Shown piece after piece: positions 47,101-64,000 of a stretch of DNA of 64,000 nt. The notes under the pieces are model-generated. The model was not told where the DNA came from. It saw nothing but the letters and a program-made list of their open reading frames with translations, and did no database searches. The stretch is taken from positions 1,798,001 through 1,862,000 of the forward strand of contig NZ_AP025460.1 in NCBI RefSeq assembly GCF_024347315.1. The letters are read 5' to 3'. Every line of letters starts with the position of its first letter. Within the stretch, counting starts at the first letter, position 1. This DNA is from Vibrio atlanticus (GTDB lineage Bacteria > Pseudomonadota > Gammaproteobacteria > Enterobacterales > Vibrionaceae). The translations under genes and the position numbers were made by a program.

Positions 47101-47455
47101 AGGCTTGTGCCAAATGTCTTGTATCGATTAACTCAATATAGAGGTCTTTCTTTGAGCGATCTTCACGCTTAAATAAGAAGCCATTGGTTAGCCATTGGCA
47201 GAAGGTTTTATTGCTATGGTACAAATCACTGGCAGGCAACGTTGAGATCACACGGACAATAGTGTCGATTTCGCTCTCGGTAATACTGTCACCTCGGTAC
47301 TGCTTGGCAAGGTAACTACGTAAGTCATCGACAATGAGTACTTGTTCTTTGTCTTCACACGCTATTTGTTCACCCACTACGTGTGGGTAGCCTTGCTCAC
47401 CCAATAGCTCAATAATGGCTTGTTCGAGTTTGGCTTCAGTAAATTTTAAGCTCAT
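44159..47455 (-). CDS. hsdR: Type I restriction enzyme subunit R (HsdR)
   Basis: HsdR translocates DNA and cleaves it when the target site is unmodified. The 1098-residue protein has an N-terminal nuclease domain with PDGILYVNGLPLVVFEFKSA (about residues 175-195), the PD-(D/E)xK core. The SF2 motor has Walker A ATGCGKSFTMQF, CISDEAHRS and VGFTGTP, and the C-terminal part is helical and binds HsdM. Length is normal and the gene is intact. It is the last gene of the operon and needs HsdM and HsdS for function. The hsdS copy here is frameshifted. Confidence 0.95.
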   Translation of the reverse strand: MSLKFTEAKLEQAIIELLGEQGYPHVVGEQIACEDKEQVLIVDDLRSYLAKQYRGDSITESEIDTIVRVISTLPASDLYHSNKTFCQWLTNGFLFKREDRSKKDLYIELIDTRHLAQALRLMFVPLLENKSKPDNTDREVAEGKVTYLETNRLKATDTNIYKIVNQLEIEGVDEQVRIPDGILYVNGLPLVVFEFKSAVREKDATIFDAWKQICVRYRRDIPKLFVYNAMCIISDGVNNKMGNLFAPYEFFYAWRKVTGNESTEKDGINSLYTMITGLFNQTRLLDVVKNFVFFPDTSKKEIKICCRYPQYYAARKLYYNIDKERKPYGSGKGGTYFGATGCGKSFTMQFLSRLLMKSIDFESPTIVLITDRNDLDDQLSKQFCNASDYIGDEMVVPVKSRQDLRDKLQGIKSGGVFLTTIHKFTEDIELLSERTNIICISDEAHRSQVNLDKKVVIKYQDGVAVDVKETYGFAKYLHDSLPSATYVGFTGTPIDATLDVFGDAVDSYTMTESVNDEITVRIVYEGRAAKVILDNSKLEEVEKYYQACAEAGTNEHQIEESKKASANMNAILGDPDRIEALAKDFVEHYEGRVKEGSTIKGKAMFVCASREIAFDFYKQVKILKPEWFEEKLSIDGVELTDKEKEELKPLAMVQMVMTRGKDDDPDQYSLLGTKEHRKSLDQQFKSPKSNFKIAIVVDMWLTGFDVPELDTIYIDKPLQKHNLIQTISRVNRKFEGKAKGLVVDYIGIKSRMNQALAMYSKADETNFEDIRFSVIEVKNHLDLLRQMFHKFDTSGYYTGEPCKQLECLNQSAEYILQTKKGETRFMALVGRMKAAYDVCCGSELLSQQERDQIHFYIAVRSIIFKLTKGDAPDTAQMNKRVRELVAEALRADGVEEIFTIGDEHAEAIDIFDEDYLARINKIKLPNTKIQLLQKLLEKAISDFKKVNQLQGMNFSKRFQSLVEQYNERRENDVLNGEEFDTFSQEMTDIIFDIVKEMGSFEDLGIDLEEKAFLDILNHMRKKYDFTYDDDKMLELAKEMKTTVDNVAQYPDWAGRDDIKAKLKVDLILLLHKYGFPPVANDDVYKGVLEQAENYKKNV

Positions 47456-49439: not shown

Positions 49440-50823
49440 TTACTCTGCAATTGCTATAGCTTGTTCTACTTGCAGGTTTTCTAAGTCGATTTCGCCGGAA
49501 AGCAATTTAGGGAGCAAGGTGTCGCGCAACTTTTCTAGACTGATATTTTGTGCATTATTCTTTGCTGTCATATCAACTAGGTTGCTCACAATAGAGCTAT
49601 ATTTATCTAGAATGTCTTTAGGTGGTGTTAAGATTTTAACCTTGCGTAATTCTGCCTGCTTGATGCCTAAGACTGTAGAACCTGAAGCTCGACCTTCCAT
49701 ATCCGCCTTTGCTTGGGTTGTTTGTAGCCAGTCAAATAAAAATACTGGATTGCAAACATCAGAGTTTGCTCTAAGCCCATATAATCTTTGGCTTAAGCAA
49801 AAGTCTTGTGACCCATCAAAGAAGTACAGTTCACCCATCGGGGCTTCAGATGTCATGATGATATCGCCTTTGACAAGAGGCTCTTTCATCCATTTTCTAT
49901 ATGTAGTTTCATCAAGAAAGCGGATTGTATCTGGTCGAACAATCTTCTTAGATTTAATGTTTTTTGCCGAAATTGCTGGATAACCTTCTTCAACCCAATC
50001 ACTACCGAGTTTTTTAGGTGTTTTTCCGCGATGGTCGATAATCATCGATGTATGACTATCTAGTGTTCCAACGTCCCAACCTTCGGGTATCAAGCCCAAC
50101 TCAGACTCAACGAGCTTTTCTGGGAAAAGCGAGGCAACTTCTTTTGAAAGAAAAGGCGCATCCATCCCTTTTGGCTGTTCGCCATTCATTTTGGCTTTTA
50201 CTGGGTCAAAATCGACAAACCAAGACTTGAACAACGTTTGTGCCATTTGCTCTAGGGTTTGGTTAATTTGGTTGTTGAGTATGATTTTATTACTTACTTG
50301 ACATAATACTTCGCTGAGATTGAGCTGCTCAGAGAGTGTTGGAAATTTAGTCTCATACTCCATAATTTTCTTGGGTGAAGTATGTAATATTTTTGTCCCG
50401 GTGGCGCGTTGGAAAACAAAGTTGTTGAAAGGTTGACTTAAAAACAGCCAGTACAGGTATTCAGGGCATACTAAACTAGGTTCTTTTATAATTACTTTTC
50501 CTAGTCGTTGATTATGTAAGTATATTTCCCCATCATCTGGAATCATGCCTGGTATTCCCAAGATTTCGCCACCTGATGTTTGACAGGTCATCGCAAGCAA
50601 TATATCCCCGGGAGTCAAAATATAATCGGTAGGAAACTCCGATGTATACCGCTTTAGTTTCGTCTCCGAAAATCGAAACCCACCACTATAATCGAAATTG
50701 CCGATTGCAACGACAATGGGGCCATTATCAATACCTTCTCGCATGTTATTCCCCCTTAAAAGCAAAACCATGTTTCACATCAATAAGGTCGCCCAATGAA
50801 TGTGTTTTCCAATCACTCCCCAT
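49440..50823 (-). pseudogene. hsdS: Type I restriction specificity subunit HsdS, frameshifted near its start
   Basis: HsdS recognises DNA through two target-recognition domains separated by conserved helices. Reading from ATG 50823, the frame gives MGSDWKTHSLGDLIDVKHG then FAFKGE and a stop. The next frame resumes at once as GNNMREGIDNGPIVVAIGNF and runs 440 residues to TAA 49440. The break lies in a run of five G (C5 on the plus strand, 50751-50755). Four G would give intact KGNN. The conserved repeats LNNQINQTLEQMAQTLFKSW and NISLEKLRDTLLPKLLSGEI remain. The ATG lies 11 bases inside the end of hsdM. A phase switch, a mutation or an error are all possible. Confidence 0.88.
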
Positions 50824-52459
50824 AACCCAACGCCTCCAAGTTTTGGCGAATCGCTTTATCCAACTCTTGAGATTGATTCATTTGGCTGTATAGGGTTTGT
50901 GAAAGCTCACTCATCTTGGTTTCAAACGGAATGCCGTCATCTTCAACTTCCGCAGCGCCTACGTAACGCCCCGGCGTCAGTACAAAATCATTAGCCTTGA
51001 TATCAGCAATCGTCGCTGACTTGCTAAAACCAGCTTGGTCTTGATACTTCTCTACTTTACCGTCACCACGCTCAATACGCGCTTTGAGTTCTGCGTCATC
51101 ACAACGCCAAGCATGGTATGTGTCGGCAATCAGCGCGATGTCGTCTTTAGTGAGCTCTTTATTGGTGCGGCTAATCATGGTGCCCATTTCACGGGCATCA
51201 ATAAACAGCGTCTCTTTTTGGCGGTTACGGAAACCTTTGGTGGTGTTCTCGGTTTTGTCTTTAGTGATAAACCAAATGCACACAGGGATCTGCGTAGTAA
51301 AGAACAGCTGCCCCGGCAGAGCAATCATACATTCAACGCGATCGTTCTCGATAAGCTGCTCGCGGATTTCCCCTTCACCGGACGTGTTTGAACTCATTGA
51401 GCCGTTCGCTAATACAAAACCCGCCGTGCCTGTTTCACTTAGCTTCGAGAGCATGTGCAAAATCCAACCGTAGTTGGCGTTGCCTGTTGGTGGAGTACGA
51501 TAGCCGGCAAAGCGCGCATCATCGGTTAGCTCTGCTTCATTACGCCAACCTTTAAGGTTAAACGGTGGATTCGCCATGATGTAATCGGCTTTTAAGTCTT
51601 TATGCTGGTCAGCAAAGAAGGTATCAGCTGCACGCTCACCTAAGTTGCCCGATAAACCGCGAATGGCTAAGTTCATCTTCGCCAGTTTATAAGTAGTGGA
51701 GGTCAGCTCTTGACCATAGATTGCGATGTCTTTAGTACGCCCTTCGTGCTCTTTAATGAACTTTAACGACTGAACAAACATACCGCCCGAGCCACAAGCC
51801 GGATCGTAGATTTTGCCTTGGAAAGGTTCTAGCATTTCAGCTAACAGTGTTACCACTGACTTAGGCGTGTAGAACTCGCCACCACCTTTGCCTTCGGTTG
51901 CTGCAAACTTACCTAGAAAGTATTCGTAAACCCGACCGATTAAGTCTTCTTCGCTCATGTCACATTCGTTCGCCAGCGTATCAATGTTTTCAATGCTGTC
52001 GATAAGTGACGCCAGCTTTTTCACTTCCAGACCTTGGCGCGAGAAGTAGTTGTCTGGCAGAGCGTCTTTTAAGCTTGGGTTGTTTTTTTCGATAGTCGAT
52101 AAAGCGGTATCAATGATGATAGCGATATCGTCTTGCTTAGCGCGCGCTTTAACAAATGACCAACGCGCATCTTCTGGCAAAAAGAAGATGTTGTCTTGTT
52201 GGTAGAACTCTTTCATCTCAACAAAAGCTTCTTGCCCATCGTCTATCATCTTCTGACGGCGTGCTTCAAACTTGTCGCTGATGAACTTTAAGAACACAAG
52301 ACTTAATACCACGTGTTTGTATTCAGATGACTCAACACTGCCACGCAACTGATTAGCGGTATCCCAAAGGGTCTCTTCAAAGCCTTTGGTCGCTTTTTTA
52401 GCTTTTGACGCGGGCTTAGCTTTTGAGGCGGGTTTCTTGTTAGCGGGTGCTTTTGCCAT
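50813..52459 (-). CDS. hsdM: Type I modification methyltransferase subunit HsdM
   Basis: HsdM makes N6-adenine methylation on DNA chosen by HsdS. The 548-residue protein from ATG 52459 starts with a Lys/Ala-rich tail (MAKAPANKKPASKAK), then a helical N-terminal HsdM domain. SAM motif I is KIYDPACGSGGMFVQS and the catalytic motif IV is IMANPPFNLKGW. GGEFYTPKSVVTLLAEML is typical. The frame runs to 52510, but the extra residues lack support. It overlaps hsdS by 11 bases, so translation of both subunits is coupled. Confidence 0.94.
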   Translation of the reverse strand: MAKAPANKKPASKAKPASKAKKATKGFEETLWDTANQLRGSVESSEYKHVVLSLVFLKFISDKFEARRQKMIDDGQEAFVEMKEFYQQDNIFFLPEDARWSFVKARAKQDDIAIIIDTALSTIEKNNPSLKDALPDNYFSRQGLEVKKLASLIDSIENIDTLANECDMSEEDLIGRVYEYFLGKFAATEGKGGGEFYTPKSVVTLLAEMLEPFQGKIYDPACGSGGMFVQSLKFIKEHEGRTKDIAIYGQELTSTTYKLAKMNLAIRGLSGNLGERAADTFFADQHKDLKADYIMANPPFNLKGWRNEAELTDDARFAGYRTPPTGNANYGWILHMLSKLSETGTAGFVLANGSMSSNTSGEGEIREQLIENDRVECMIALPGQLFFTTQIPVCIWFITKDKTENTTKGFRNRQKETLFIDAREMGTMISRTNKELTKDDIALIADTYHAWRCDDAELKARIERGDGKVEKYQDQAGFSKSATIADIKANDFVLTPGRYVGAAEVEDDGIPFETKMSELSQTLYSQMNQSQELDKAIRQNLEALGYGE

Positions 52460-52582
52460 GTTCTTAATTACTCGAATAATGTAGGACTTGGCTCTGAACA
52501 GCAGAGCCAAGATTTATTGCGTAGTATTGTATCGTAAATGCGACTTTTTGCATTTAATAGAGCGTCGGTTTAGCCGATTAAT

Positions 52583-54532
52583 TTACGCCATTGAATGGTC
52601 GCCAGAGCGTTCCACGTGAGGTATAACCGAATCCGGAAATGCTTCGGTACTAAATACCACCAAGTTTTGACCCGCCCTCGTCATGGCTACGTAGAGTTTA
52701 CGCAACGATTCTTGCAACGCTTCCTCTCGTTCTGATTCTGTGAAATCAAGATGCTTAGCTTGGTTAATGATATGCCCAGCACCCAATACGAATGTTGTGG
52801 GTGCTTCCATGCCCGTACAGCTATTCACCGACATAATTTTGATTCTGCTGCCCACAACGGTTTTAAGATCGTCCTTATCGTTATAATTCACAACGGTGTT
52901 ATGACCCGTTCTGGCCTCAATCTCTCTTTTTAAATTCCACGGCTTATATTGACGGCTGTAAACCACCATAATGTGATGCAGTGGTACTTTTTGAGACTTA
53001 ACTAGAGCTTCAATCTCATTTAAGAAACGAGCATTCTCATCTTGGTGGCTTCTTGAGTAGATAATATGAGGCTTACTTCCCCGCGCCATTTGGTCAAAGT
53101 CAGGCTTAACGTAATCTTCGGGGCTGCTATCTAACTCGTCTAAAAGTGAATTTGACGCGGTCATGATTTCATAGGTTGTTCGGTATGAATGGTTTAAACG
53201 TTTAGTTCTACCGCGAACATTCAATCCGACACTTTTCCAACTTAACCGTCTTTTTAGAAAACCTTGATTAGGATCGGCACACATGAAAATGCTTCCTCCG
53301 GGTACTAGAGACCTTTTAACCACCTCAAGCCAAGACGGCGCAAAAAATTGTGCTTCATCAATCATAAAATGATCGAAGCTCTGTAACGAACTAGCAGATA
53401 ACGCGAGTTCTTTAATATAAATATGGGGAAGATAACCTTTAGGATCTGAGAGTTTTTCAATTAAAATCTCATACAGTTGCCAAACATGTTCCCTTTGACT
53501 TTTCTGTAATGCAAAACCTCGCCCCTGTCGGTCATATTCTAGATACTCATCTTTATCTTTAATTAAGTAGTCGTTGATATACTCAAGTTCATCCCAAATT
53601 TGACTGTCTTTAAGCGACAATTCTGTATAGCAAGCATGGGCATTATTAAGAATTTTTTTCTTTGCGGCTTCAACATCTTTCTCTTTAAACAGTGCGCTTA
53701 CATAATTAAATGTTGCTTTGTATTGCTGCCACGCAAAGGAGTGAAATGTTTGTATTTCAAGGTTTTCAGGTTTTCCGCCTAACCATGTTTTAAACTTGAG
53801 CTTAATATCTTCAACCACCGGGTTGTTATGTATAATCAGCCGTACCTTTTTCTCAGGGAATTTCTTACAATAGAGAATTGCTCGATTTATTAAAATGAGC
53901 GTTTTGCCACTTCCGGCGACTCCATTGATCAAACGAACCGAGAACTCATCCTGCTGCTCTTCATCCTGATCTACCGACTCCAGAATATCTAGCCGAGTCG
54001 CTAATTCTTGGTCATAATCCAGGAAAAAAGGCAATAACCTAGCCGAGTTATCACTCACTAGATGCTGTCTACGAGTACTGCACTGTGTCGGGATAGCGGA
54101 CTCCGGGAAGAGCTTCTTTTTTATACTGGTAAAATGTTCAGCCGAAAGTTCTATCAACTTGTCGATGATGATTCGCTCACCATTAGCATAGAAATCTATT
54201 TGACTAATAACTTGAACATAATCAGGTAAATGAGAATGGTTCGAATCTAGGTTTTCTACCACTGCGAGATATCTGACTTCCGCACAATTTCGTTTCACCA
54301 ATAAGTCATTGAATCGACTCAACACCTGAATATCCGCTCGGCTTGGCACTTCTGAATGAGACCCAACAAAAACCCAGCTATTACAAGGTCCTTCAACAAT
54401 ACAGGGGGCCACTTTTAAGGCATCGTCTAGAGGCTCACGAATAAAAAAATCATCGCCCAATCGAGCAAATACCTTTTTGAAATGACGTCGATGCTTGCGG
54501 TCTAAGCCTGTAATCGTATCTATATGTGCCAT
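52583..54532 (-). CDS. UvrD/Rep-like SF1 helicase, defence-locus neighbour of hsdM
   Basis: The 649-residue protein has SF1A helicase motifs. Walker A is NGVAGSGKTLILINRA (about residue 205), motif II is FMIDEAQFFAPSW, motif III is IFMCADPNQGF and motif VI is LYVAMTRAGQNLVVF. The N-terminal 190 residues are of no recognised type and may be a nuclease-like or adaptor domain. The middle region is long and rich in charged residues. Its start overlaps the stop of the Upf1-like helicase by one base, so both form one operon. It lies 123 bases before hsdM. I do not recognise a named system. Confidence 0.85.
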   Translation of the reverse strand: MAHIDTITGLDRKHRRHFKKVFARLGDDFFIREPLDDALKVAPCIVEGPCNSWVFVGSHSEVPSRADIQVLSRFNDLLVKRNCAEVRYLAVVENLDSNHSHLPDYVQVISQIDFYANGERIIIDKLIELSAEHFTSIKKKLFPESAIPTQCSTRRQHLVSDNSARLLPFFLDYDQELATRLDILESVDQDEEQQDEFSVRLINGVAGSGKTLILINRAILYCKKFPEKKVRLIIHNNPVVEDIKLKFKTWLGGKPENLEIQTFHSFAWQQYKATFNYVSALFKEKDVEAAKKKILNNAHACYTELSLKDSQIWDELEYINDYLIKDKDEYLEYDRQGRGFALQKSQREHVWQLYEILIEKLSDPKGYLPHIYIKELALSASSLQSFDHFMIDEAQFFAPSWLEVVKRSLVPGGSIFMCADPNQGFLKRRLSWKSVGLNVRGRTKRLNHSYRTTYEIMTASNSLLDELDSSPEDYVKPDFDQMARGSKPHIIYSRSHQDENARFLNEIEALVKSQKVPLHHIMVVYSRQYKPWNLKREIEARTGHNTVVNYNDKDDLKTVVGSRIKIMSVNSCTGMEAPTTFVLGAGHIINQAKHLDFTESEREEALQESLRKLYVAMTRAGQNLVVFSTEAFPDSVIPHVERSGDHSMA

Positions 54533-56262
54533 TAATCTACTTCCACCTTATAACAGTGACGAACCAGAGATTTATAATCTTCAATGTTTTGTCGCACCTT
54601 AGGATCATCCACCTGTTGCAGCATGCCTTCTGGGATTTCGGGGCCGATAATAACCAACTTAGTCTGGGGTCTAGTAATGGCGACATTGAGACGTTCCGCT
54701 TGGAAAAAGAATTCAGCGATAGCGCTAATGTATTGCGGATCTGAGGAGCAGAATGAAACTATAATCATTTCCCGCTCTTGGCCTTGCATCCTTTCCACGG
54801 TATCCGTTACCACTAATTTTGATCCAAATATCCCCAACTTATCCTGAAGGCAAGACTTTAAAGCTTTGCCATGACCCCGAAACGGTGTAACGACACCTAT
54901 CTCTTCAGCAGATAGACCCGCTTCAACAGCCGCGGTTATCAAATCGGCCACTAACGCCGCTTCTTTTCTATCTACACTTCGGGCATTGACCCCTGGAGTT
55001 TTGATAAATACAGAAGGTCGATCGCTAGAGAGGACGTCGGAATACTTGTGAGGTTTTTTAGGTAGAGAAAATGATGACAGCGTTGGTGGTCTTTTCGATT
55101 CTAATTCGCCCTTGTAATAACAGTTACTAGGCCATTCAGTTAAGGCTGGAGACATCCGATAAGTTTGGCTTAACAATACCGAAACCTTTTCATTGCCAAG
55201 AATCATCTTAGAGAAAGCCGAACTGTCCTCAAGAACGGATTGAGAAAGTATCACAGGAGGAAGCTGCTTATGATCCCCAACGAATACAAATCGACACCCT
55301 TTCCTCATTGCCATTAACGCCAATGGAACGGTAATTTGGCTAGCTTCGTCAAAAATGATGGTATCAAATGTAAAGCTTTCAAGTCGCTCACTACAGGTAG
55401 CAAAAGGTGTCGCACCAATCACATACCCAGTGTCCGGTATATCTTGCCATTTTGATGCGTATTCAAAATGCTGAACCTTGTCACTCAGTGATTTCTTACC
55501 GCCACTCGCGCAAACTTTTGCAACAGGAACCCCTTCCTCTACAATTTTGTTGAGCGCATTATTGATCGCCATGTGGGTATGAGAAGTCATGAAAACTCTT
55601 TGCCCTGCCTCTACAAGAAGCTTGGCGATAATACTAATAACTTTTGTTTTACCCGTTCCGGGAGGACCTTGAATACACGCTAAGTATTTAGATGCGACAC
55701 CAATACCAACAGCTTCACTCTGTTTTTCATTTAATCCTCGAGATTCGGCATAATCCGCAGCCTCATCAAAGTCTTCGTCATAAATCGTTTCCGTATTTAA
55801 ATGTCCGGAAAGCATGGGTAGCAATACGTCTCTGCCGACTTTCGATGTTGCTACATCAGCCAAAGCTTTATCATAAAACGGTTTTAAGTCCATGCCTGCG
55901 GGGTCGGCATAACAGCCTTCACTTAATTGTGGAAGTAAGCTTTGATCGACTTTGACTTTGAGCAGCCATTCTCCATCGTTTTCAGCTTCAATAGCTACTT
56001 GACCAAATACTTTATGGTTACTTGGGTCGCCAAGATGCAAGCAAATCATATCGCCTTCTCTAAAGCGTGATTCGTTATCACCTAATACGACTTCCAGGTG
56101 ATTAGACCCGGAACATCTTACTGACTCTATTCGTTGAGTTTCGCCTTTTAATAGTTTTTCTTCTAAAGGTTTCTTCCAAGTTTCTAGAAGTTTTTCCATG
56201 CTAGCTTCATGTTCTGCATACACAAAAGCTTGTAGTTCTTTTAATACCGAAGTGAGTTCCAT
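54532..56262 (-). CDS. Upf1/SMUBP2-like SF1B helicase
   Basis: The 576-residue protein is an SF1B helicase of the DNA2/NAM7/Upf1 type. It has Walker A IQGPPGTGKTKVISIIAKL (about residue 196), motif II TIIFDEASQITVPLALMAM, motif III FVGDHKQLPPVILSQ, motif V VERMQGQEREMIIVSF and motif VI ERLNVAITRPQTKLVIIG. The N-terminal 190 residues hold a beta-barrel-like stalk as in Upf1 relatives. No nuclease motif is evident. It starts the minus-strand run Upf1-like, UvrD-like, hsdM, hsdS, SWIM, hsdR. A role with type I restriction is by context only. Confidence 0.87.
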   Translation of the reverse strand: MELTSVLKELQAFVYAEHEASMEKLLETWKKPLEEKLLKGETQRIESVRCSGSNHLEVVLGDNESRFREGDMICLHLGDPSNHKVFGQVAIEAENDGEWLLKVKVDQSLLPQLSEGCYADPAGMDLKPFYDKALADVATSKVGRDVLLPMLSGHLNTETIYDEDFDEAADYAESRGLNEKQSEAVGIGVASKYLACIQGPPGTGKTKVISIIAKLLVEAGQRVFMTSHTHMAINNALNKIVEEGVPVAKVCASGGKKSLSDKVQHFEYASKWQDIPDTGYVIGATPFATCSERLESFTFDTIIFDEASQITVPLALMAMRKGCRFVFVGDHKQLPPVILSQSVLEDSSAFSKMILGNEKVSVLLSQTYRMSPALTEWPSNCYYKGELESKRPPTLSSFSLPKKPHKYSDVLSSDRPSVFIKTPGVNARSVDRKEAALVADLITAAVEAGLSAEEIGVVTPFRGHGKALKSCLQDKLGIFGSKLVVTDTVERMQGQEREMIIVSFCSSDPQYISAIAEFFFQAERLNVAITRPQTKLVIIGPEIPEGMLQQVDDPKVRQNIEDYKSLVRHCYKVEVD

Positions 56263-56520
56263 ACCTAGCTTACCAATGTGAATTTGTACTCAAAAATGAG
56301 AATATTCATCAATACGAATAACCCAACCTTATTTTTTGAACGGTCATCACGTCAACTACACATTCACGAAACTGTTAATTACATCTCTTACTAGACGTAG
56401 ATCACCGCTTAGATTAACTATATGTCATTGGATAATGGTGGATTTTACAACGTGCTATGGGATCTCTTGGGACCAAGAAATGGTTAAGAGTCTGATAAAA
56501 AAAGGAATTTCAGACACAAA

Positions 56521-56541
56521 AAAGCCCACGCTAGGTGGGCT
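56521..56541 (-). terminator. Intrinsic terminator next to the tRNA-like scar
   Basis: AGCCCAC (56523-56529) pairs with GTGGGCT (56535-56541). On the minus strand a run of T follows the stem. It stands 14 bases downstream of the tRNA-like 3' end (minus strand), which is how a native tRNA terminator would be placed. Confidence 0.75.
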
Positions 56542-56554
56542 CTTTCGTATAATG

Positions 56555-56573
56555 TGGTGCCGCTACTGGACTC
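56555..56573 (-). other. tRNA 3'-end-like scar, candidate island attachment site
   Basis: On the minus strand the bases GAGTCCAGTAGCGGCACCA look like the last 19 bases of a tRNA, ending in CCA. They resemble the T-arm end and acceptor of a Vibrio tRNA-Thr. The 5' part is absent. A terminator follows 14 bases downstream. This is the usual layout of the far end (attachment repeat) of an element integrated in a tRNA gene. The element would then lie to the right (56.6 kb onward). Confidence 0.55.
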
Positions 56574-56871: not shown

Positions 56872-56921
56872 TGATACCTATCCGGCGTTTTTCAAGGTAG
56901 TTGTCATCATTCGCTTGTTTA

Positions 56922-57929
56922 CTAAGCAGCTTCTCTTTCTGGATTTAGGTGAATGTCACCAACAGGTTCACAGTTTCTGATATCACCTGGCCAGCGTTCA
57001 GGGTTTAGCTCTTTTGCTGCGAGTAATACCTTTGCTCGGCGCTTCAAGATCTCTTTATCTTTTCCATTGTGACGCTCTGAAGGCGTGACGTAATTTAGCT
57101 TACTGTGCTTATGCTCGGTGTTGTACCAGCGTACGAAGGCTTCAACCCAACTTCGACTACTGTTGATACTTTCAAAGCCCTTTGTTGGCCAGCTTGGCAT
57201 GTACTTTACCGTGCGGAACAATGATTCGACATACGGGTTATCATCGCTGACTCTTGGGCGGCTATACGATGAGGTAATACCTAACTCTTCCATTTTTGCT
57301 TTAAACGTCAGCGACTTCATCGGTGCACCATTATCTGAGTGAAGAACCAGCGCTTGATTGAAGCATTGCTCTCGCATCAACGTTCGTTGCAGAAGTTGTG
57401 ACGCCAGCTCACCGCATTCACGCTCATACACTTCATAACCAACGATTTTTCGACTGTAGATGTCCTCGATGACATACAGGTAATAGTGTTGGCCTCGAAC
57501 TTTTGAAGGTAAGTAAGTGATATCCCATGTATAGACTTGGTTCGAATCTGTCGCTGTGTAACTTGATGGCTTCGCTTGCTTCTGCCTACTTCTTTGACGA
57601 CCTCGTCTGTGGAGTTGTCCCTGTGCACTCAGCACCCGATAGTAACTCGATTCAGAGGCGATATACTCACCTCGGTCAAGCAGTGTCGGGACGATTTGAG
57701 TCGGAGGTAAGCTTGCGAACTCAGAGCGGTTACACACCTCGATAATCGCATCACGCTCTTGCTGAGAGAGCTTGTTAGCAGGCTCTGGCCTGATGCATAT
57801 CGGCCTTTTGTCAGCTTGAACTTCACCTTGCTGATACCAGCGACGATACGTTCTCAAGTCGATTTGAACTTCATGGCAAGCTGGCTCTAAACGGCATCCG
57901 CATTGCTTCGCTTCAAGGATAAGAGTCAC
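56922..57929 (-). CDS. IS3-family transposase OrfB (DDE)
   Basis: OrfB carries the catalytic domain of the transposase. The product of 335 residues (GTG start) has an HTH_21-like start and an rve/DDE domain. The Asp motif is VYTWDITYLP, the second is LVLHSDNGAPM and the Glu is in SDDNPYVESLFRTVKY. It is normally made as an OrfAB fusion by -1 frameshifting, and its frame continues upstream into orfA without a stop. No missing catalytic residue is evident, so the element could be active. Confidence 0.92.
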   Translation of the reverse strand: MTLILEAKQCGCRLEPACHEVQIDLRTYRRWYQQGEVQADKRPICIRPEPANKLSQQERDAIIEVCNRSEFASLPPTQIVPTLLDRGEYIASESSYYRVLSAQGQLHRRGRQRSRQKQAKPSSYTATDSNQVYTWDITYLPSKVRGQHYYLYVIEDIYSRKIVGYEVYERECGELASQLLQRTLMREQCFNQALVLHSDNGAPMKSLTFKAKMEELGITSSYSRPRVSDDNPYVESLFRTVKYMPSWPTKGFESINSSRSWVEAFVRWYNTEHKHSKLNYVTPSERHNGKDKEILKRRAKVLLAAKELNPERWPGDIRNCEPVGDIHLNPEREAA

Positions 57930-57955
57930 TATGGTCTGCCTTTCATCGGTTGAGG

Positions 57956-58456
57956 TTAATCGTCCTCTGGCTCTTCCCCGTAAAAGGCTCTCAGCTTTTT
58001 TCTTAGTACCAAGAGGGCGGCCGTTTCAGCGAGTGCTTTTTCTTTGAGTCGTAAATCTTTCTTCAACTCTTTGATTTCAAGTTTGTCAGCTTTAGCCTGC
58101 TTCTTTGCTTCAGCTTCCTGCTCTTTACTCGACTTAAACCCTTGCATACATTCGCTGCGCCAACTTTGGATTTGTTCAGGGAAAAGACCTTTTTCACGAC
58201 AATATTGGCTGAGTTCACTTTCGGTCATCGAGTAAGACTCGGCAACAATGGCGAGTTTAGTTTGAGCAGACCACTGCTCTGATGAAGTGTTGCTATTTGG
58301 CACGGCGGCTCCTGAACGTCTGAGTTGCTGGCGCCAATGATACAGGGTCGCAGTGCTAATTCCTTCCTCTTCCGACACTTCTTTAACTGACATCGAATAG
58401 GGAGGCAACAGCTTCTTCAATATAGCTTCTTTTCTTTCTACTGAGATACGAGACAC
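57956..58456 (-). CDS. IS3-family transposase OrfA with slippery site
   Basis: OrfA is the DNA-binding part of the IS3 transposase. The 166-residue protein has an HTH (VKEVSEEEGISTATLYHWRQ), a second HTH-like segment (AQTKLAIVAESYSMTESELS) and a coiled coil (KEQEAEAKKQAKADKLEIKE). Near its end the slippery heptamer A AAA AAG lies at 57995-58001 (minus strand). After a -1 shift there is no stop before the OrfB frame. OrfAB would thus be the complete transposase. OrfA alone usually regulates transposition. Confidence 0.9.
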   Translation of the reverse strand: MSRISVERKEAILKKLLPPYSMSVKEVSEEEGISTATLYHWRQQLRRSGAAVPNSNTSSEQWSAQTKLAIVAESYSMTESELSQYCREKGLFPEQIQSWRSECMQGFKSSKEQEAEAKKQAKADKLEIKELKKDLRLKEKALAETAALLVLRKKLRAFYGEEPEDD

Positions 58457-58665
58457 AATTACTCTTTATCGCCCAAACTGGTTAAATTTTAACAGTGACA
58501 ACTATCCTGCCAGAGGGGGTATCCGTCGCGTTACAACTAATGTTTCAATGACAACATCTCATTTTGTAACCCTTATATGCGACTAAGCATTAATAACATT
58601 GTCGCTAATAGGGTATTAAGGTAATCTATTGAATGCACATCAAATGATTGAGCAATATTAAAAGA

Positions 58666-58728: not shown

Positions 58729-60381
58729 ATGCTTGTAGAAATTCTTTCAAACTTTTCTGAAGATGAATTATTGGATTTTTTACCCAAAAGCTCCATCAAC
58801 TTTGCACTAGATCTTGAGACTGATAACGATCAGGCAAAAGAAGACACTTCTTTCAATAAAGCCAAACTGGCAGGGATTGTTGCTAGTGTAAAACGAGTTG
58901 AGTTTTTATTTGAAAAACCATTACGTGACAAGCTCATTGAGCGACTAAGTCCACAGCAATTAGCCGAGCTATTCCCAAGCTTTAAACTTCAACCAAACCA
59001 AGTAACACCACAACATTATGATGCTGTTATCAGCTGGTCAGAAGAGAATCCCAACCTGTTTGCGTCAACGTTAGGTCTTTCAACACTTTATAACAACCAA
59101 CTAGGTCAAGACACGAAGCTTGAAAGTATTGCTCGTATCGAACCTGCCTATGGCCTTTATCCTTACCAGCAAGATATCAGTCAGCAAGTGTTTAGCAATC
59201 TTCGTACCAATAAAAAGAGAGTTTTGATTCATTTACCAACTGGCTCGGGCAAAACACGCACTGCGATGAATATTGCCTCAGAACATTTAAGAGAATCGGA
59301 CAATAATCTTGTGCTTTGGTTAGCAGACCGAGAGGAGCTGTGTTCACAAGCTTATGAAGAGTTCTCTAAAGCATGGCACTCTCTTGGGAACCGCCCTACC
59401 TCTTTATATGGTTTCTACTCAAGTTCTACAGAAAGTCTAAGTGGTATTGATTCTGGTTTTGTTGTTGCAGGCCTTCATAAGTTTTTAAGCTTAAGAAAAA
59501 CCAACTCAAAACAGCTACAGCTTCTATATAAAGAGCTCGCTGAAAAAGTTACCTTAGTCATTTTTGATGAAGCACACAAAGCTATTGCTCCAAAATTCCA
59601 AGAAGTAGTGCAAGATTTCATTAGTGATAAAGCCTTTCACGCTGACCTAATCGGTTTAACGGCTACACCAGGCCGAAGCTACTCTGAAGACGGTCTGTCT
59701 GAAGAAGATAAACGCTTAGCTATTTTTTTCAATAACAATAAAGTATCTATGCAAATATCGGGATATCTATCTCCGATAGATTACCTTGTTGAAAAAGGTT
59801 ACTTAGCAAAAGCTAACTTTAAGTCCCTTAACTACGATCACTCAAACATTGCGGCTTATGAACTTCGAGATGCTGGCGGTGTGGAAACAATGACAACATT
59901 AGCGAACAACTTAGAACGCAATAAAAATATAATCAAAACTATAATTAGTGAATGTAACCTAAATTCTCAAATCATCGTATTTGCCTGTACCGTTGAGCAC
60001 AGTATTAACTTAGCAACAGCTCTTGCATACCAAGGTATTAATGCAGCCTCTATTGATAGTAAAAACGACTCTCCTGAAAGCAGGCGAGCTAAGATTGCTC
60101 AATATAAAAATGGGGAACTACAAGTCCTCGTGAACTTTAATGTTTTGACTGCTGGATTTGATGCACCAAAGACAAATGTCACAGTTATTGCTAAACCAAT
60201 GAACTCGTTAGTGCAATATTTGCAAATGGCAGGTCGCGCTATGCGCGGTCATAAAAGTGGTGGCAACCGAGAATGCAGCATTTATACAGTTATGGACAAC
60301 ATACCCGAATTTCAAAGTATCAGCCTAGCATTTAGTCATTGGAATGACATGTGGGTGGAAAAGGAAAAAATTAATGAGTAA
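58729..60381 (+). CDS. SF2 DEAH-box helicase of the GHKL/PLD operon
   Basis: The 550-residue protein is an SF2 helicase of the type found in restriction and defence systems. It has a Q-like LYPYQQDISQQV, Walker A LPTGSGKTRTA (about residues 169-179), motif II VIFDEAHKA (280-283 is DEAH), motif III LTATPGRSY and motif VI QYLQMAGRAMRG. The first 140 residues are a non-motor N-terminal domain I do not recognise. Its stop overlaps the start of the GHKL gene by 8 bases. It is the first gene of an operon with a GHKL ATPase and PLD proteins. The coding DNA is visibly A+T-richer than the restriction genes. Confidence 0.88.
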   Translation: MLVEILSNFSEDELLDFLPKSSINFALDLETDNDQAKEDTSFNKAKLAGIVASVKRVEFLFEKPLRDKLIERLSPQQLAELFPSFKLQPNQVTPQHYDAVISWSEENPNLFASTLGLSTLYNNQLGQDTKLESIARIEPAYGLYPYQQDISQQVFSNLRTNKKRVLIHLPTGSGKTRTAMNIASEHLRESDNNLVLWLADREELCSQAYEEFSKAWHSLGNRPTSLYGFYSSSTESLSGIDSGFVVAGLHKFLSLRKTNSKQLQLLYKELAEKVTLVIFDEAHKAIAPKFQEVVQDFISDKAFHADLIGLTATPGRSYSEDGLSEEDKRLAIFFNNNKVSMQISGYLSPIDYLVEKGYLAKANFKSLNYDHSNIAAYELRDAGGVETMTTLANNLERNKNIIKTIISECNLNSQIIVFACTVEHSINLATALAYQGINAASIDSKNDSPESRRAKIAQYKNGELQVLVNFNVLTAGFDAPKTNVTVIAKPMNSLVQYLQMAGRAMRGHKSGGNRECSIYTVMDNIPEFQSISLAFSHWNDMWVEKEKINE

Positions 60382-62182
60382 TAGATTTTTAAGCGCAGAA
60401 ACTGTCATTGAGTCATTAAGAGATAACGGTTACAACAATACTGCTTATGCGCTCGCTGAGCTAATTGATAATAGTTTACAAGCTACTGCAACTCGCGTCG
60501 AAGTTGGCTTCATTGAAGAGCAGCTTGCTGCTAGGAAAAATTATACTGTCTCGGAGATTTCACTTTGGGATAACGGTATTGGTATGGATATCGATACTCT
60601 TCGTGTAGCTATGCAATTCGGTGGTGGTACTCATAAAAAAGATACTGGAGGTATGGGTAAATTCGGTATGGGGCTACCTAATTCATCTATCTCACAATGT
60701 AAGCGTGTTGAAGTATGGAGTTGGAAAAATGGTAGCGAGCCTCACTTCACTTATTTAGACGTCGATGAGATGAAAACTGGTCAGCTTGAAGATGTCCCAG
60801 TGCCACAGGCTAAGCCTATCCCAGCGAAATATGAAAAAGCCTTTTTCACCAAAAGGCCGGAATCTGGCACATTAATTATTTGGTCTAAACTTGACCGCCT
60901 TAGCTGGAAAACTGGCAAATCGATATATCGCCATTGTGAACATTTGGTAGGCCGAATGTATCGCAACTTCATCAGTGATGACAATATTAAAATTGAAAGC
61001 ATCACCTACCGTAAATCAGGTGACGATAGACTTGATGTCTACGACAAAGAGACATTCAAAGCAAACGATCCGATGTACCTTAAAAAGCAAACATCTTTAC
61101 CTGAACTACCTGGCAATTACAAGGGTGAAGCGTTCTTTGAAAAAATGGATGAAGAGGTTATCTCGGTAGAATATATCGACGAAAAAGGTGAACCAAAACG
61201 AGATGATGTAACAGTCACGACATCCATGGTTAAGAAAAATATATCCAATCGAATTCTAAAAGAAACCACAGGGAAATTAGGTGGTACTTCTTGGGGGAAG
61301 CACTGCAGCAAAAACGTGGGCGTATCGATAGTTCGAGCTAATAGAGAGCTAGTCTTGAGAGATTCATTCTTAACATCAGCGTTAAGAGAGAGTAAAGGCC
61401 GATTTGTAGGTATTGAAGTTTCTTTCCCTCCCACTCTTGATGCAGTGTTTGGCGTCACAAACAATAAACAAGATGCAATAAGGTTAATACCTTATGAGAT
61501 GAAAAGCATTTTTACACAGGCTGGTTTTGATTCTGAGCAAGAATATTTACGAGACCTAGAAGAAAACTCAGATTCATTACTACAAGTATTAAAAGTCGTT
61601 GCTGTGATTAAGAAACAAGTTACTGCATTAACTAAAAGCCTAGAGACTATAAATGTTGAAGGCAAGGCTGTTAAAGGTGACGAACCGAAGACTACTTCTG
61701 AAGGTGCCGCTTCTAAAGCAACCCAAGGCTCTGCACATAGAGAAACACATGGTCATAAAACAAAAGATGCTCCACCTAAAGAATTAAAAAAGAAAGACGT
61801 TATAGACCACCTCAAAACAGTGGGTGGTATGAGTGAGCAAGAAGCTGAAGAAAAAGCTGAACGCTTAATTCTTACCGGTAATCGATTTCTAATTGAAGAT
61901 GTGGCGAGAGATTCAGAAGCATTTTTTGACGTGTCTACTAGCAAAGGTTTAACACTTGTTTTATTCAATACTAACCACGTCTTCTATCAAAAACTCATCA
62001 GCAAACTTGGTCCTGATGAACTTGAAATAATGCAAACCACAATTGCAGGCTTCGCTCGAGTAATGAACGAAACTACTGATGAAAGACGCTTGGCATATTT
62101 AAACACGATTCGTCGCGAGTGGGGACTGGTCATCAGCGAGTTTTTAGAAGAACCATCAGTCGATGACTTGGATGAGTTTTAA
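60374..62182 (+). CDS. GHKL (MORC/Hsp90-like) ATPase
   Basis: The 602-residue protein starting MSNRFLSAETVIESLRDNGY has the GHKL ATP-binding site. The N-box is LAELIDNSLQAT (Glu29, Asn33), the G1 box is LWDNGIGM (Asp66) and the G2 loop is GGMGKFGMGLPN (about residues 92-103). This is the MORC-type or Hsp90-like arrangement. A transducer-like part runs to residue about 400, then comes a Lys/Thr/Ala-rich linker (EPKTTSEGAASKATQGS), then a C-terminal domain. I chose ATG 60374, because AAGGA lies just upstream. It is coupled to both flanking genes. The biochemical role is likely ATP-driven clamping. Confidence 0.85.
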   Translation: MSNRFLSAETVIESLRDNGYNNTAYALAELIDNSLQATATRVEVGFIEEQLAARKNYTVSEISLWDNGIGMDIDTLRVAMQFGGGTHKKDTGGMGKFGMGLPNSSISQCKRVEVWSWKNGSEPHFTYLDVDEMKTGQLEDVPVPQAKPIPAKYEKAFFTKRPESGTLIIWSKLDRLSWKTGKSIYRHCEHLVGRMYRNFISDDNIKIESITYRKSGDDRLDVYDKETFKANDPMYLKKQTSLPELPGNYKGEAFFEKMDEEVISVEYIDEKGEPKRDDVTVTTSMVKKNISNRILKETTGKLGGTSWGKHCSKNVGVSIVRANRELVLRDSFLTSALRESKGRFVGIEVSFPPTLDAVFGVTNNKQDAIRLIPYEMKSIFTQAGFDSEQEYLRDLEENSDSLLQVLKVVAVIKKQVTALTKSLETINVEGKAVKGDEPKTTSEGAASKATQGSAHRETHGHKTKDAPPKELKKKDVIDHLKTVGGMSEQEAEEKAERLILTGNRFLIEDVARDSEAFFDVSTSKGLTLVLFNTNHVFYQKLISKLGPDELEIMQTTIAGFARVMNETTDERRLAYLNTIRREWGLVISEFLEEPSVDDLDEF

Positions 62183-63108
62183 TGTCGGGTTTAATTTCAA
62201 ACACAGAACTAACTAAACAATTAGAAGTAATACTTCCAAGTTGTAAAAAATTAACTATCATTTCTGCATTCATGACTCAGCCAGCTACCCGCTGGCTGAG
62301 TCTTTTAATCGCAGAAAATAAACCTATTGTTCAGCTAGTCGGTCGTTTCACACCTAATGACTTCGTTAAGGGCTCAAGCGATTTAAACGCGCTACGTGAT
62401 TGTATCAAAAATGGTTACCAGGTTAAGGCTCTAGTAAACCTACATGCTAAAATTTATCAAATTGACGAAGACACCATTTTTAATGGGAGTGCAAACTTAA
62501 CTGGCAAAGGTTTAGCACTAGTCAATGATAGTAATCTAGAATCATGTAGCCAAGTCACGCCTAGTCCTGAGTCCAGGACTTTTATAAATAAGATTGCTAC
62601 ATCCGCAATAGAGATAACTCTTCCTACGCTTGATAAAATGGAAGAATACCTTAAACAATTCCGGGATGAAGATACCGGTGACTCACCCGCTATTTGGCCA
62701 GAAGAGATACTTTCTCTCGCGACAGAGTTATTCGTCTCCGATTTCCCATTAGGAAAGCCTGGGGCAAGTGTAAATGAATACACTCTAAACCCATCTCTTC
62801 CATTTGCTCAAATTGAACATTCTAAGGATAACGTTGAGATAGCATCTATTATTTTCAAGCAAAGTAAAGCCTATCGATGGTTAAAAGCTCAAGTTAAAGA
62901 AAATAAAAGTGGGCGTGACTTGGGCTTTGGTCAAGTATCACGTTTGCTCCACGACGCGCTTTCCGATGATCCTGCACCATATCGTCAAGATGTAAAAAAC
63001 TTGCAAAGTAACTTGTACAGATACGTTGAAATATATTCATTTGATGAAATGGCAATAAAAACCCCAGGAAGAAGGAGTGAAGTTTTAATTTTAAAAGATT
63101 ATAATTAG
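62182..63108 (+). CDS. Single-HKD phospholipase D-like protein
   Basis: The 308-residue protein has one PLD catalytic motif, LHAKIYQIDED (His88, Lys90, Asp95), followed by FNGSANLTGKG. Such proteins act as dimers and are often nucleases, as in BfiI and Nuc. The second half has no HKD motif. There are no TM segments or signal peptide, so it is cytoplasmic. ATG 62182 shares a base with the stop of the GHKL gene (TAATG). It is probably the nuclease or a sensor of a four-gene operon. The target is not known. Confidence 0.85.
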   Translation: MSGLISNTELTKQLEVILPSCKKLTIISAFMTQPATRWLSLLIAENKPIVQLVGRFTPNDFVKGSSDLNALRDCIKNGYQVKALVNLHAKIYQIDEDTIFNGSANLTGKGLALVNDSNLESCSQVTPSPESRTFINKIATSAIEITLPTLDKMEEYLKQFRDEDTGDSPAIWPEEILSLATELFVSDFPLGKPGASVNEYTLNPSLPFAQIEHSKDNVEIASIIFKQSKAYRWLKAQVKENKSGRDLGFGQVSRLLHDALSDDPAPYRQDVKNLQSNLYRYVEIYSFDEMAIKTPGRRSEVLILKDYN

Positions 63109-63214
63109 TTGGAAATGTTGAAGCTGTTACTATCTATATTTATTTTTCTAAACTTGGGTAATAAATAATCAGAAAGTGACTATTTAATAATAGAAGAGAA
63201 AATGGAGATAACTA

Positions 63215-64000
63215 GTGACAAAAGTTCCTAAATCTAGTGAGTTATTAGACCACCTACCCCCTGTTTACTTTCCAAATGAAACAAACATTGTAGATGACCT
63301 ATTTCTTCCTGTCGCCAAAACATCTTTTAGCTTTGATTGCCTCTCAGGATACTTCTCATCTAAAGCCTTATCTGAACTAGCGGAGCCACTAGCCTATCTA
63401 TTTGAAAAACCGAGTACTTATGGAAGATTCATTATAAGCCCGAACCTAAGTGAAGAAGATAAAAATGCACTATTGGAAGCTTATTCTTGTGATGAATCAA
63501 TACTTCATTACTTGGTAGATGAAAACAACTTAGATAAAGACGCTATCTCAAAACATACGCTAGAGGTTATGAAGTATTTGATCTCTAAAAAAAGGTTAGA
63601 TATTCGTATTGTACTTATGAAAAAAGGGATGATGCATGCCAAAATCTGGCTTTTTAATACAAGTTGTGGGAAAGTTGCAATTCATGGGTCGGGAAATGCG
63701 ACAAAATCAGGTTTAATGACTAATTTTGAGCAACTTATTTTTAGTAGAGCGTGGGACTCTAATAGTAACAATATAATTATTGACTCCTATCAATTGAGAT
63801 TTTTGGATTTTTGGGATGACAGACGTAACGATTCATACACCTTAAAGTTGAATGACAAAACTGTTTCCAAAATGTTTCATTCAACAAAAATATCTGACAC
63901 GTCAAATGATAATTTCAATAAACTTCTAGATGATCTGAAAGCACATATAGAGGGTGAATATAACATGAAAAAGCTGACAATACCAAAGTGGCTAAACTAC
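63215..64000 (+). CDS. Second PLD-like protein, possibly PLD-helicase fusion, cut by the window end
   Basis: A GTG start at 63215 is preceded by GGAGA (63204-63208). The frame is open for 262 codons to the window end. It has a PLD motif KKGMMHAKIWLFNTS (His141, Lys143, but Asn in the usual Asp position), then IHGSGNATKSGL. The N-terminal strand CLSGYFSSKALSELAEPL is like that of PLD-type nucleases. The last visible residues (KKLTIPKWLNY) resemble the lead-in of an SF2/SNF2 helicase domain, so a PLD-helicase fusion is plausible. That is inference. It follows the first PLD gene by 106 bases. Confidence 0.75.
   Translation, partial: MTKVPKSSELLDHLPPVYFPNETNIVDDLFLPVAKTSFSFDCLSGYFSSKALSELAEPLAYLFEKPSTYGRFIISPNLSEEDKNALLEAYSCDESILHYLVDENNLDKDAISKHTLEVMKYLISKKRLDIRIVLMKKGMMHAKIWLFNTSCGKVAIHGSGNATKSGLMTNFEQLIFSRAWDSNSNNIIIDSYQLRFLDFWDDRRNDSYTLKLNDKTVSKMFHSTKISDTSNDNFNKLLDDLKAHIEGEYNMKKLTIPKWLNY

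Follow-up and report, generated by a model that had tools for sequence, protein, structure and literature searches.

A helicase, MORC-like ATPase and HKD nuclease trio as a probable restriction arm of SspABCD phosphorothioation in Vibrio atlanticus

The window analysed here is a 64,000-nucleotide stretch of the Vibrio atlanticus genome (NCBI RefSeq assembly GCF_024347315.1, contig NZ_AP025460.1, positions 1,798,001 to 1,862,000 of the forward strand). Near its right end a four-gene defence operon had been proposed from the letters alone (the original prediction). The first three of these genes encode an SF2 helicase, a MORC-like GHKL ATPase and an HKD nuclease of the phospholipase D (PLD) fold; together (the trio) they probably form the restriction arm of a phosphorothioate-based restriction-modification (R-M) system with SspABCD as its marking arm. 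SspABCD swaps a backbone oxygen for sulfur at its motif in host DNA. The association between the trio and the ssp genes is well supported. In this genome the known PbeABCD system is a second arm, located on the same mobile island and served by the same marking module. What the analysis shows directly are the trio genes, their order, conserved active-site residues, confidently predicted folds and the linkage to ssp genes; the enzyme activities, complex formation and antiphage effect of the trio are inferred. It also seems fairly likely that the trio is a fourth, undescribed branch of phosphorothioate restriction, perhaps the commonest partner of SspABCD, which would explain many of the sspBCD loci without SspE or SspFGH.

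Linkage of the trio to ssp genes

Two tests free of any choice of neighbours show the linkage. Among 398 drawn Pseudomonadota genomes, SspC is present in 11 and GHKL matches in 22, consisting of six full-length matches (428-813 bits) and 16 confined to the N-terminal domain. All six full-length proteins belong to SspC genomes, at 2.6-7.5 kb from sspC, against none of the 16 others (Fisher's exact test 3.1e-9, with the V. atlanticus genome left out). In 198 Bacteroidota genomes (SspC in 10, GHKL in nine) four GHKL proteins, including that of the centre genome, are long (>350 model positions), and all four lie within 2.5-6.8 kb of sspC (Fisher 6.7e-5 without the centre genome). Two of the five short ones occur in genomes with an SspC match: in G443 two more distantly related GHKL genes form a pair some 5 kb away from sspC (locus L108), and in G553 the SspC match is weak and on another contig.

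A neighbourhood survey gives a broader picture. A GHKL alignment scan of 84,980 species genomes yielded 316 relatives. The 80 best of them, representing 78 loci, were searched with locus profiles built from the window and from plasmid loci. The original prediction had proposed such a survey of whether its genes travel together, and the outcome is favourable for the first three: all of them are present in 54/78 loci, and in 48/78 they keep the same order and strand with gaps below 1.5 kb. Counted separately, the helicase is found in 71/78 loci and the PLD protein or a substitute in 57/78. As one system, however, the four genes do not hold up, and the genes that the first three accompany are those of the SspABCD phosphorothioation module, beyond the window. 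One or more of SspB, SspC and SspD are encoded in 65/78 loci, and in 41 of the 44 where both flanks extend for at least 9 kb. The sspBCD genes are near 48 of the 54 complete trios, the other six having sspC elsewhere in the genome, and often the trio is directly continuous with sspD (for example in L030, L058, L085 and L099). According to the record titles the loci are from Pseudomonadota, Bacteroidota, Cyanobacteriota, Actinomycetota, Bacillota, Chloroflexota, Planctomycetota, Gemmatimonadota, Armatimonadota and Acidobacteriota, with one Nitrosopumilus metagenome-assembled genome (MAG) among the 78.

Plasmids were sampled as well (14 of 54 records examined). The three-gene set and SspC stand on the same record in 12/12 cases with homologues of 31-35% identity; near the distant GHKL homologues H13 and H14 (24-27% identity) neither the trio nor sspBCD was found (0/2).

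Conservation of the three proteins

The four plus-strand genes lie where the original prediction placed them, including the overlaps of 8 bases between the helicase and GHKL genes (when the latter starts at ATG 60374) and of 1 base between the GHKL and PLD genes, and the setting is A+T-rich as described (G+C 0.38 over 58729-64000 against 0.436 over 1-56433). The ATG at 60374 gives a GHKL protein of 602 amino acids, the length of the database copy P0001, and the ATG at 60344 one of 612. Because the trio proteins show full-length family matches and are conserved across many other genomes, chance open reading frames (ORFs) are excluded. Protein relatives were considered for 120 of 2,582; at the DNA level, positions 58729-62728 gave no match in complete E. 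coli genomes.

The helicase carries motif I (PTGSGKTRT), a DEAH box, kept in 11/13 homologues and degenerate in the other two, and a SAT-type motif. Its nearest named profiles are RadD/YejH, Hef and EcoAI-type HsdR, all far under their cutoffs. The GHKL protein consists of a GHKL and S5-type core followed by a C-terminal extension; it has the Bergerat ATP-binding motifs and the conserved lysine of the S5-type domain, and residues E29, D32, N33, D66, G70, G95, G98, G100 and K365 are identical in 36/36 aligned proteins. Its structural model (pLDDT 87) matches MORC3, MORC4, SMCHD1, MORC2 and MutL over approximately residues 1-430. The PLD protein combines the HxK...GSxN motif with the HKD nuclease fold: residues H88, K90, G102, S103, N105, N118 and E120 are identical in 32/32 aligned proteins, and the model (pLDDT 92) matches SauUSI, Nuc, BfiI and NgoAVII over residues 1-158. 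In the predicted secondary structure its C-terminal helices and hairpin look like a winged helix.

Over 55 loci the distances of the helicase and the GHKL protein correlate at 0.95, a value reached in 0/2000 permutations. Taken with the lower GHKL-SspC correlation given below, the helicase and GHKL protein form a tight pair that exchanges partners moderately.

Partners of SspABCD

Looking from the marking side, we found SspC in 11, 10, 30 and 6 genomes of Pseudomonadota, Bacteroidota, Cyanobacteriota and Actinomycetota, and compared 43 regions around it (10, 9, 19 and 5, respectively). The four centre genomes (G000, G412, G411 and G413), weak partial matches in Cyanobacteriota and G666 were left out; the last has the plasmid already represented by L005, on which the trio is found. 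The GHKL scan had also led to the genomes of two regions (L126 and L136), L122 and L082 share a contig, and several regions are truncated at contig ends.

Helicase and GHKL genes are found together in 14/43 regions, 11 of them with PLD (Pseudomonadota 5/10, Bacteroidota 3/9, Actinomycetota 1/5, Cyanobacteriota 5/19), against 6/43 for SspFGH (at least two of the three proteins) and 5/43 for PbeA with PbeC. This makes the trio a concrete candidate for the missing partner of sspBCD. No two kinds of partner occur together in the 43 regions at the thresholds used, and 14/14 helicase and GHKL regions are without SspFGH or a PbeA-PbeC pair. In 18/43 regions none of these partners was detected, several of these having contig ends or a broken SspC. 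Strong SspE was found in none of the 43 regions with a crude, insensitive single-sequence model and a PADLOC check on chosen ORFs only.

Combinations do occur among the loci found by other routes: the trio with Pbe in the present genome, the trio with PbeA in L022, and a diverged form of the cassette with SspFGH in L007 and L091. A weak SspE-like ORF follows PLD in L019, L020, L023 and L035. For L098 an identification of the neighbouring genes as SspFGH was considered and rejected; they are HerA/DndH-like instead.

These counts can be set beside published ones. In a survey reported in part of PMC8092258, 2,211 of 2,678 sspBCD loci (83.9% as printed) lacked sspE and sspFGH, and the question of unknown restriction partners was raised. 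Passages of PMC12421847 describe Acinetobacter baumannii, where sspE is missing next to the remaining ssp genes in 5,518/5,530 cases and other restriction-type genes lie in the region. As set out in sections of a 2025 review (PMC12707154), the restriction branches proposed are three: dndFGH/sspFGH, sspE and pbeABCD.

The fourth gene and the genomic context

To the right of the window the next 37 kb were read as records L003 and L004, L003 positions being converted to window numbering by adding 63000. This extension, suggested by the original prediction, completes the last gene. The presumed second PLD gene turns out to be the start of pbeA, which encodes a 695-residue protein whose HKD domain precedes an SF2 helicase (PADLOC PDLC02707, 578 bits, residues 17-679; NCBIfam TIGR04095, 335 bits over 255-689, under the cutoff of 600). 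The run does not stop there: it continues into a Pbe set and then the Ssp genes (Table 1). Of the proposed four-gene operon, the first three genes are conserved together; the last one is PbeA and belongs to PbeABCD/CxC, a known system. The gene order is the one given for PbeABCD in the relevant parts of PMC6459918 and PMC10853773. The genes stand in the order PbeA-B-C-D, with B and D assigned by position and size. PbeA or PbeC is near only 3/78 trio-related loci, so the pairing of the trio with Pbe is an occasional one.

The Ssp marking module is present: SspD (PAPS-reductase-like), SspC (an ATPase), SspB and SspA (a cysteine desulfurase) match nearly over their full lengths, with the Pfam domains DUF4007 (SspB), PAPS_reduct and Aminotran_5. 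A gene for a TIGR04096 putative methyltransferase follows, and such genes recur close to trio-Ssp loci. Also beside the Ssp genes, at L003:14076-15404, lie a HEPN-like ORF (PF18735, 26.1 bits, under cutoff) and a full-length match to the PADLOC candidate family PDC-S40 (285 bits).

Table 1. Features in the window and in the 37 kb to its right (window numbering unless L004 is given)
Feature	Position	Strand	Description
HsdR	44159-47455	-	type I R-M, Pfam
HsdS	49440-50771	-	type I R-M, Pfam
HsdM	50813-52510	-	type I R-M, Pfam
Imperfect direct repeat, left copy	56434-56573	.	125/141 identical to L004:12117-12257
Insertion sequence, 1,637 bp	56883-58519	-	HTH_Tnp_1 and rve ORFs; between left island boundary and trio
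SF2 helicase/translocase, trio gene 1	58729-60381	+	550 amino acids; ResIII 4.6e-26, Helicase_C 6.2e-14
MORC-like GHKL ATPase, trio gene 2	60374-62182	+	602 amino acids; HATPase_c_3 4.1e-20
HKD (PLD fold) nuclease, trio gene 3	62182-63108	+	308 amino acids; PLDc_2 2.5e-10; single HKD motif
pbeA, PLD-SF2 helicase	63215-65302 (63215-64000 in window)	+	695 amino acids; first gene of the PbeABCD set
pbeB-position ORF	65306-65521	+	71 amino acids; without profile match, named by position and size
pbeC, PbeC/DndD-type ABC ATPase	65522-67651	+	PbeC 171 bits
pbeD-like gene	67651-68073	+	140 amino acids; TIGR04062 23.3 bits (cutoff 74.25); no PADLOC match
sspD	68202-69107	-	PADLOC SspD 418 bits
sspC	69116-72457	-	PADLOC SspC 1125 bits
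sspB	72444-73475	-	PADLOC SspB 311 bits
sspA	73806-74864	+	PADLOC SspA 424 bits
TIGR04096 gene (DNA phosphorothioation-associated putative methyltransferase)	74851-76911 (L003:11851-13911)	-	702 bits
Tyrosine integrase gene	L004:10823-12064		adjoins right repeat; Pfam Phage_integrase, Arm-DNA-bind_3

Trio, Pbe and Ssp genes appear to belong to one putative integrated island of 37,824 bp, delimited by the two repeat copies and ending at a tRNA-Val gene (L004:12238-12314), whose 3' end is overlapped by the right copy. The insertion sequence has a second copy, 100% identical and in opposite orientation, at L004:7772-9408, and the two lie near both island ends. The original prediction had noted the adjoining type I restriction locus and the insertion sequence. 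Both are there, though as neighbours of the trio rather than as parts of it, and the type I locus, left of the boundary repeat, is outside the island and was dismissed as a component. Two overlapping helicase genes on the minus strand (52583-56262) are also left of the boundary. One is UvrD-like, with a NERD+UvrD profile as best PADLOC match (88 bits); the other, at 54532-56262, encodes an SF1 helicase (AAA_11/AAA_12) with MkoA-like C-terminal matches (162 bits).

Proposed mechanism and alternative explanations

In the mechanism that we propose, the SspABCD proteins of this genome would mark host DNA with sulfur at their motif. Judged by its family, the SF2 helicase would survey DNA as a double-stranded DNA translocase, as happens in type I and type III enzymes. 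The MORC-like GHKL ATPase may clamp DNA as a dimer driven by ATP, bridging or looping it and thereby licensing cleavage, along the lines of the looping model put forward in parts of PMC2292703. The HKD nuclease, by family resemblance, would cut the strands, probably as a dimer since it has a single HKD motif. Most likely DNA without the sulfur mark would be attacked and marked host DNA spared, as with DndFGH and SspFGH. Concerning the direction of the sulfur dependence, our analysis gives protection about an even chance and leaves activation as a tentative possibility, the rest going to other arrangements.

If the proposal is right, a bacterial MORC-type clamp reads or enforces a mark on the DNA backbone, a counterpart of the eukaryotic MORC ATPases that act downstream of chromatin marks, and MORC-like ATPases of bacteria, so far known chiefly by the genes around them, gain a defined epigenetic context. 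Within a single mobile island, moreover, two or more attacking arms could then be seen to rely on the same marking module.

In an unlikely alternative, sulfur would activate the trio as it does SspE or Pbe: phosphorothioates of the host would switch on or license an attack on invading DNA or on replication instead of protecting host DNA. Sections of PMC6459918 and PMC8092258 report that SspE and PbeABCD, which partner the same or similar marking modules, need phosphorothioation for their activity and that PbeABCD showed no cleavage of viral DNA. The trio is located beside Pbe in this genome, and in the sample tested complete trios occur only in sspC genomes, which fits activation as well as protection. 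Yet the invariant catalytic residues of the HKD nuclease argue for cleavage, a translocase with a nuclease generally resembles the attackers of unmarked DNA (type I and III R-M), and no sulfur-sensing domain was found in the trio proteins. Much further down in probability comes the suggestion that the trio is an accessory of the marking side, for repair, dosage control or loading of SspABCD. Helicases and MORC/MutL-type ATPases do serve repair too, and nicking by SspB is described as part of Ssp marking in sections of PMC12707154; in addition, the 14 helicase and GHKL regions show that the trio needs no other effector, although many Ssp loci are without it. Against this, the trio includes a nuclease with an intact active site and is missing where SspFGH or Pbe is present instead (11/43 regions), so that it behaves as an alternative to effectors.

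We consider it very improbable that the trio works on its own in defence and has nothing but defence islands in common with the ssp genes. Defence genes do cluster in islands, and a prediction from 2008 (parts of PMC2292703) already had R-M systems of MORC or paraMORC, helicase and nuclease that do without phosphorothioation; the loci without sspBCD in reach and the limited co-divergence of GHKL and SspC, given below, point the same way. The drawn genomes speak against it, since every full-length GHKL protein in Pseudomonadota is close to sspC although sspC is in only 11/398 genomes, whereas the N-terminal-only proteins avoid sspC genomes altogether. Moreover, 54/54 complete-trio loci have SspBCD or SspC in their genome, and the trio often runs on without a break from sspD.

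Several observations do count against the trio as a restriction arm of SspABCD. Thirteen of the 78 loci have no sspBCD within reach; at the genome level SspC was found for 10 of them, including the six complete trios mentioned above, and the genomes of L043, L063 and L073 gave no SspC match. In none of these three is the full trio encoded as separate ORFs, and two of them (L063 and L073) come from MAGs. The distance correlation between GHKL and SspC is moderate at 0.49 (0/2000 permutations reached it; not corrected for species phylogeny). In none of the three trio proteins was a phosphorothioate-binding domain identified. All sequences in the SspC query alignment came from trio-linked loci, a bias towards detecting Ssp genes that have the trio beside them. 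Finally, the PLD protein or its substitute is missing in 21/78 loci by ORF search, with tblastn recovering PLD in only one of them (L063). These include 9 to 10 Nostoc-type loci, several of which have shortened helicases; besides, the gammaproteobacterial loci L039, L043, L046 and L047 have GHKL without helicase and PLD, Ssp genes still being present in 3/4 of these genomes or regions. The nuclease may therefore not be obligatory everywhere, or the PLD-less loci may have decayed or use another nuclease.

Variant and reduced loci

Variant cassettes were seen in L007 (5705-10107), L013 (10445-14895) and L091 (8305-12822), where a diverged helicase (HelX, which in L007 and L013 has lost motif II) and GHKL are followed by a protein called NucX in place of PLD. 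NucX (359-376 amino acids) has no Pfam match in these three loci; its QVKSS stretch, as we take it, recalls PD-(D/E)xK nucleases. In the cyanobacterial MAG locus L063 (9980-12637) GHKL and PLD are joined in one ORF of 885 residues, either a genuine fusion or a local deletion. The Nostoc-type loci without detectable PLD are L050, L053, L054, L055, L060, L071, L072, L076, L082 and L086; some of them have a split SspC, and decay is possible.

Bacteroidota Ssp loci show a recurring protein of about 810 amino acids (L108:14137-18376, L109:2053-4506 and L110:2675-5098). It gives a weak HATPase_c_3 match in L108 and L109; the L108 copy overlaps another GHKL gene, more distantly related, that lies some 5 kb away from sspC. 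This protein may be one more GHKL-based partner of Ssp.

Comparison with known systems

The trio proteins were compared with the profiles of PADLOC 2.0.0 (2023) and NCBIfam 20.0 (June 2026). All matches were either partial or below the cutoff and no profile names the trio, so the profile search that had been proposed assigns none of the first three genes to a named system. The claim that the set differs from Mokosh, Dpd, Mza, Hachiman and Druantia therefore stands, the matches being partial, weak and single-domain, or sub-cutoff. The gene set probably belongs to a DNA-targeting defence system, as first suggested, with a helicase-GHKL-HKD cassette that is conserved and not named by the profiles. 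For Mza, MzaB matches residues 21-187 of the GHKL protein with 70.9 bits against a cutoff of 850, and no other Mza protein was matched. DISARM (DrmC), Zac (ZacB), Druantia, Hachiman, Dpd and Mokosh were discarded as homes because no profile matched a core protein over its full length; the weak, partial single-domain matches include DrmC (40.3 bits, residues 21-153), HamB (26.5) and DpdF (26.6 bits), and those to MkoA belong to the separate gene at 54532-56262. Nor is the trio SspE or SspFGH, as its proteins have no PADLOC match to SspE, SspF, SspG or SspH and a scan of the neighbouring proteins was without SspE match. With Pbe only the shared helicase core is matched (PbeA, residues 127-519, 99.5 bits); GHKL and PLD have no Pbe match.

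No account of the trio together with phosphorothioation was found in open-access papers (preprints not covered). By word count, GHKL, MORC, MutL, Hsp90 and gyrase are absent from the main texts of PMC10853773 and PMC12839542. As a general idea, helicase-GHKL-HKD restriction operons go back to the paper of Iyer, Abhiman and Aravind from 2008 (PMC2292703). The MORC/paraMORC R-M operons described in parts of it resemble the trio in combining a GHKL-S5 ATPase, an SF2 helicase and a nuclease (HKD in a few), with a looping clamp predicted, and differ from it in that the account pairs them with DNA methylases. Nowhere does the text of the paper use the words phosphorothio-, desulfurase or PAPS; an individual trio operon may be drawn in its Figure 2.

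Single domains of the trio have familiar relatives. The N-terminal domain of the GHKL protein is related to MzaB, far below the curated cutoff. The HKD nuclease shares fold and active site with SauUSI, BfiI, NgoAVII and Nuc, but these have other surrounding domains and partners; SauUSI fuses HKD to a helicase, whereas the trio keeps the two separate. Like PbeABCD, the trio is a phosphorothioate-linked arm with an HKD nuclease and an SF2 helicase. In PbeA, by contrast, both are fused and work with the ABC ATPase PbeC and small proteins, whereas the trio has them as separate proteins together with a MORC-like ATPase. Closest in arrangement are SspABCD-SspE and SspABCD-SspFGH, the latter with a three-gene arm that damages unmarked DNA according to sections of PMC8092258. 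The trio uses the same marking module and occupies the same place beside sspBCD, but is built differently: where SspE is of the DUF262 type and SspFGH is ATPase/FtsK-like, the trio consists of a helicase, a GHKL ATPase and an HKD nuclease.

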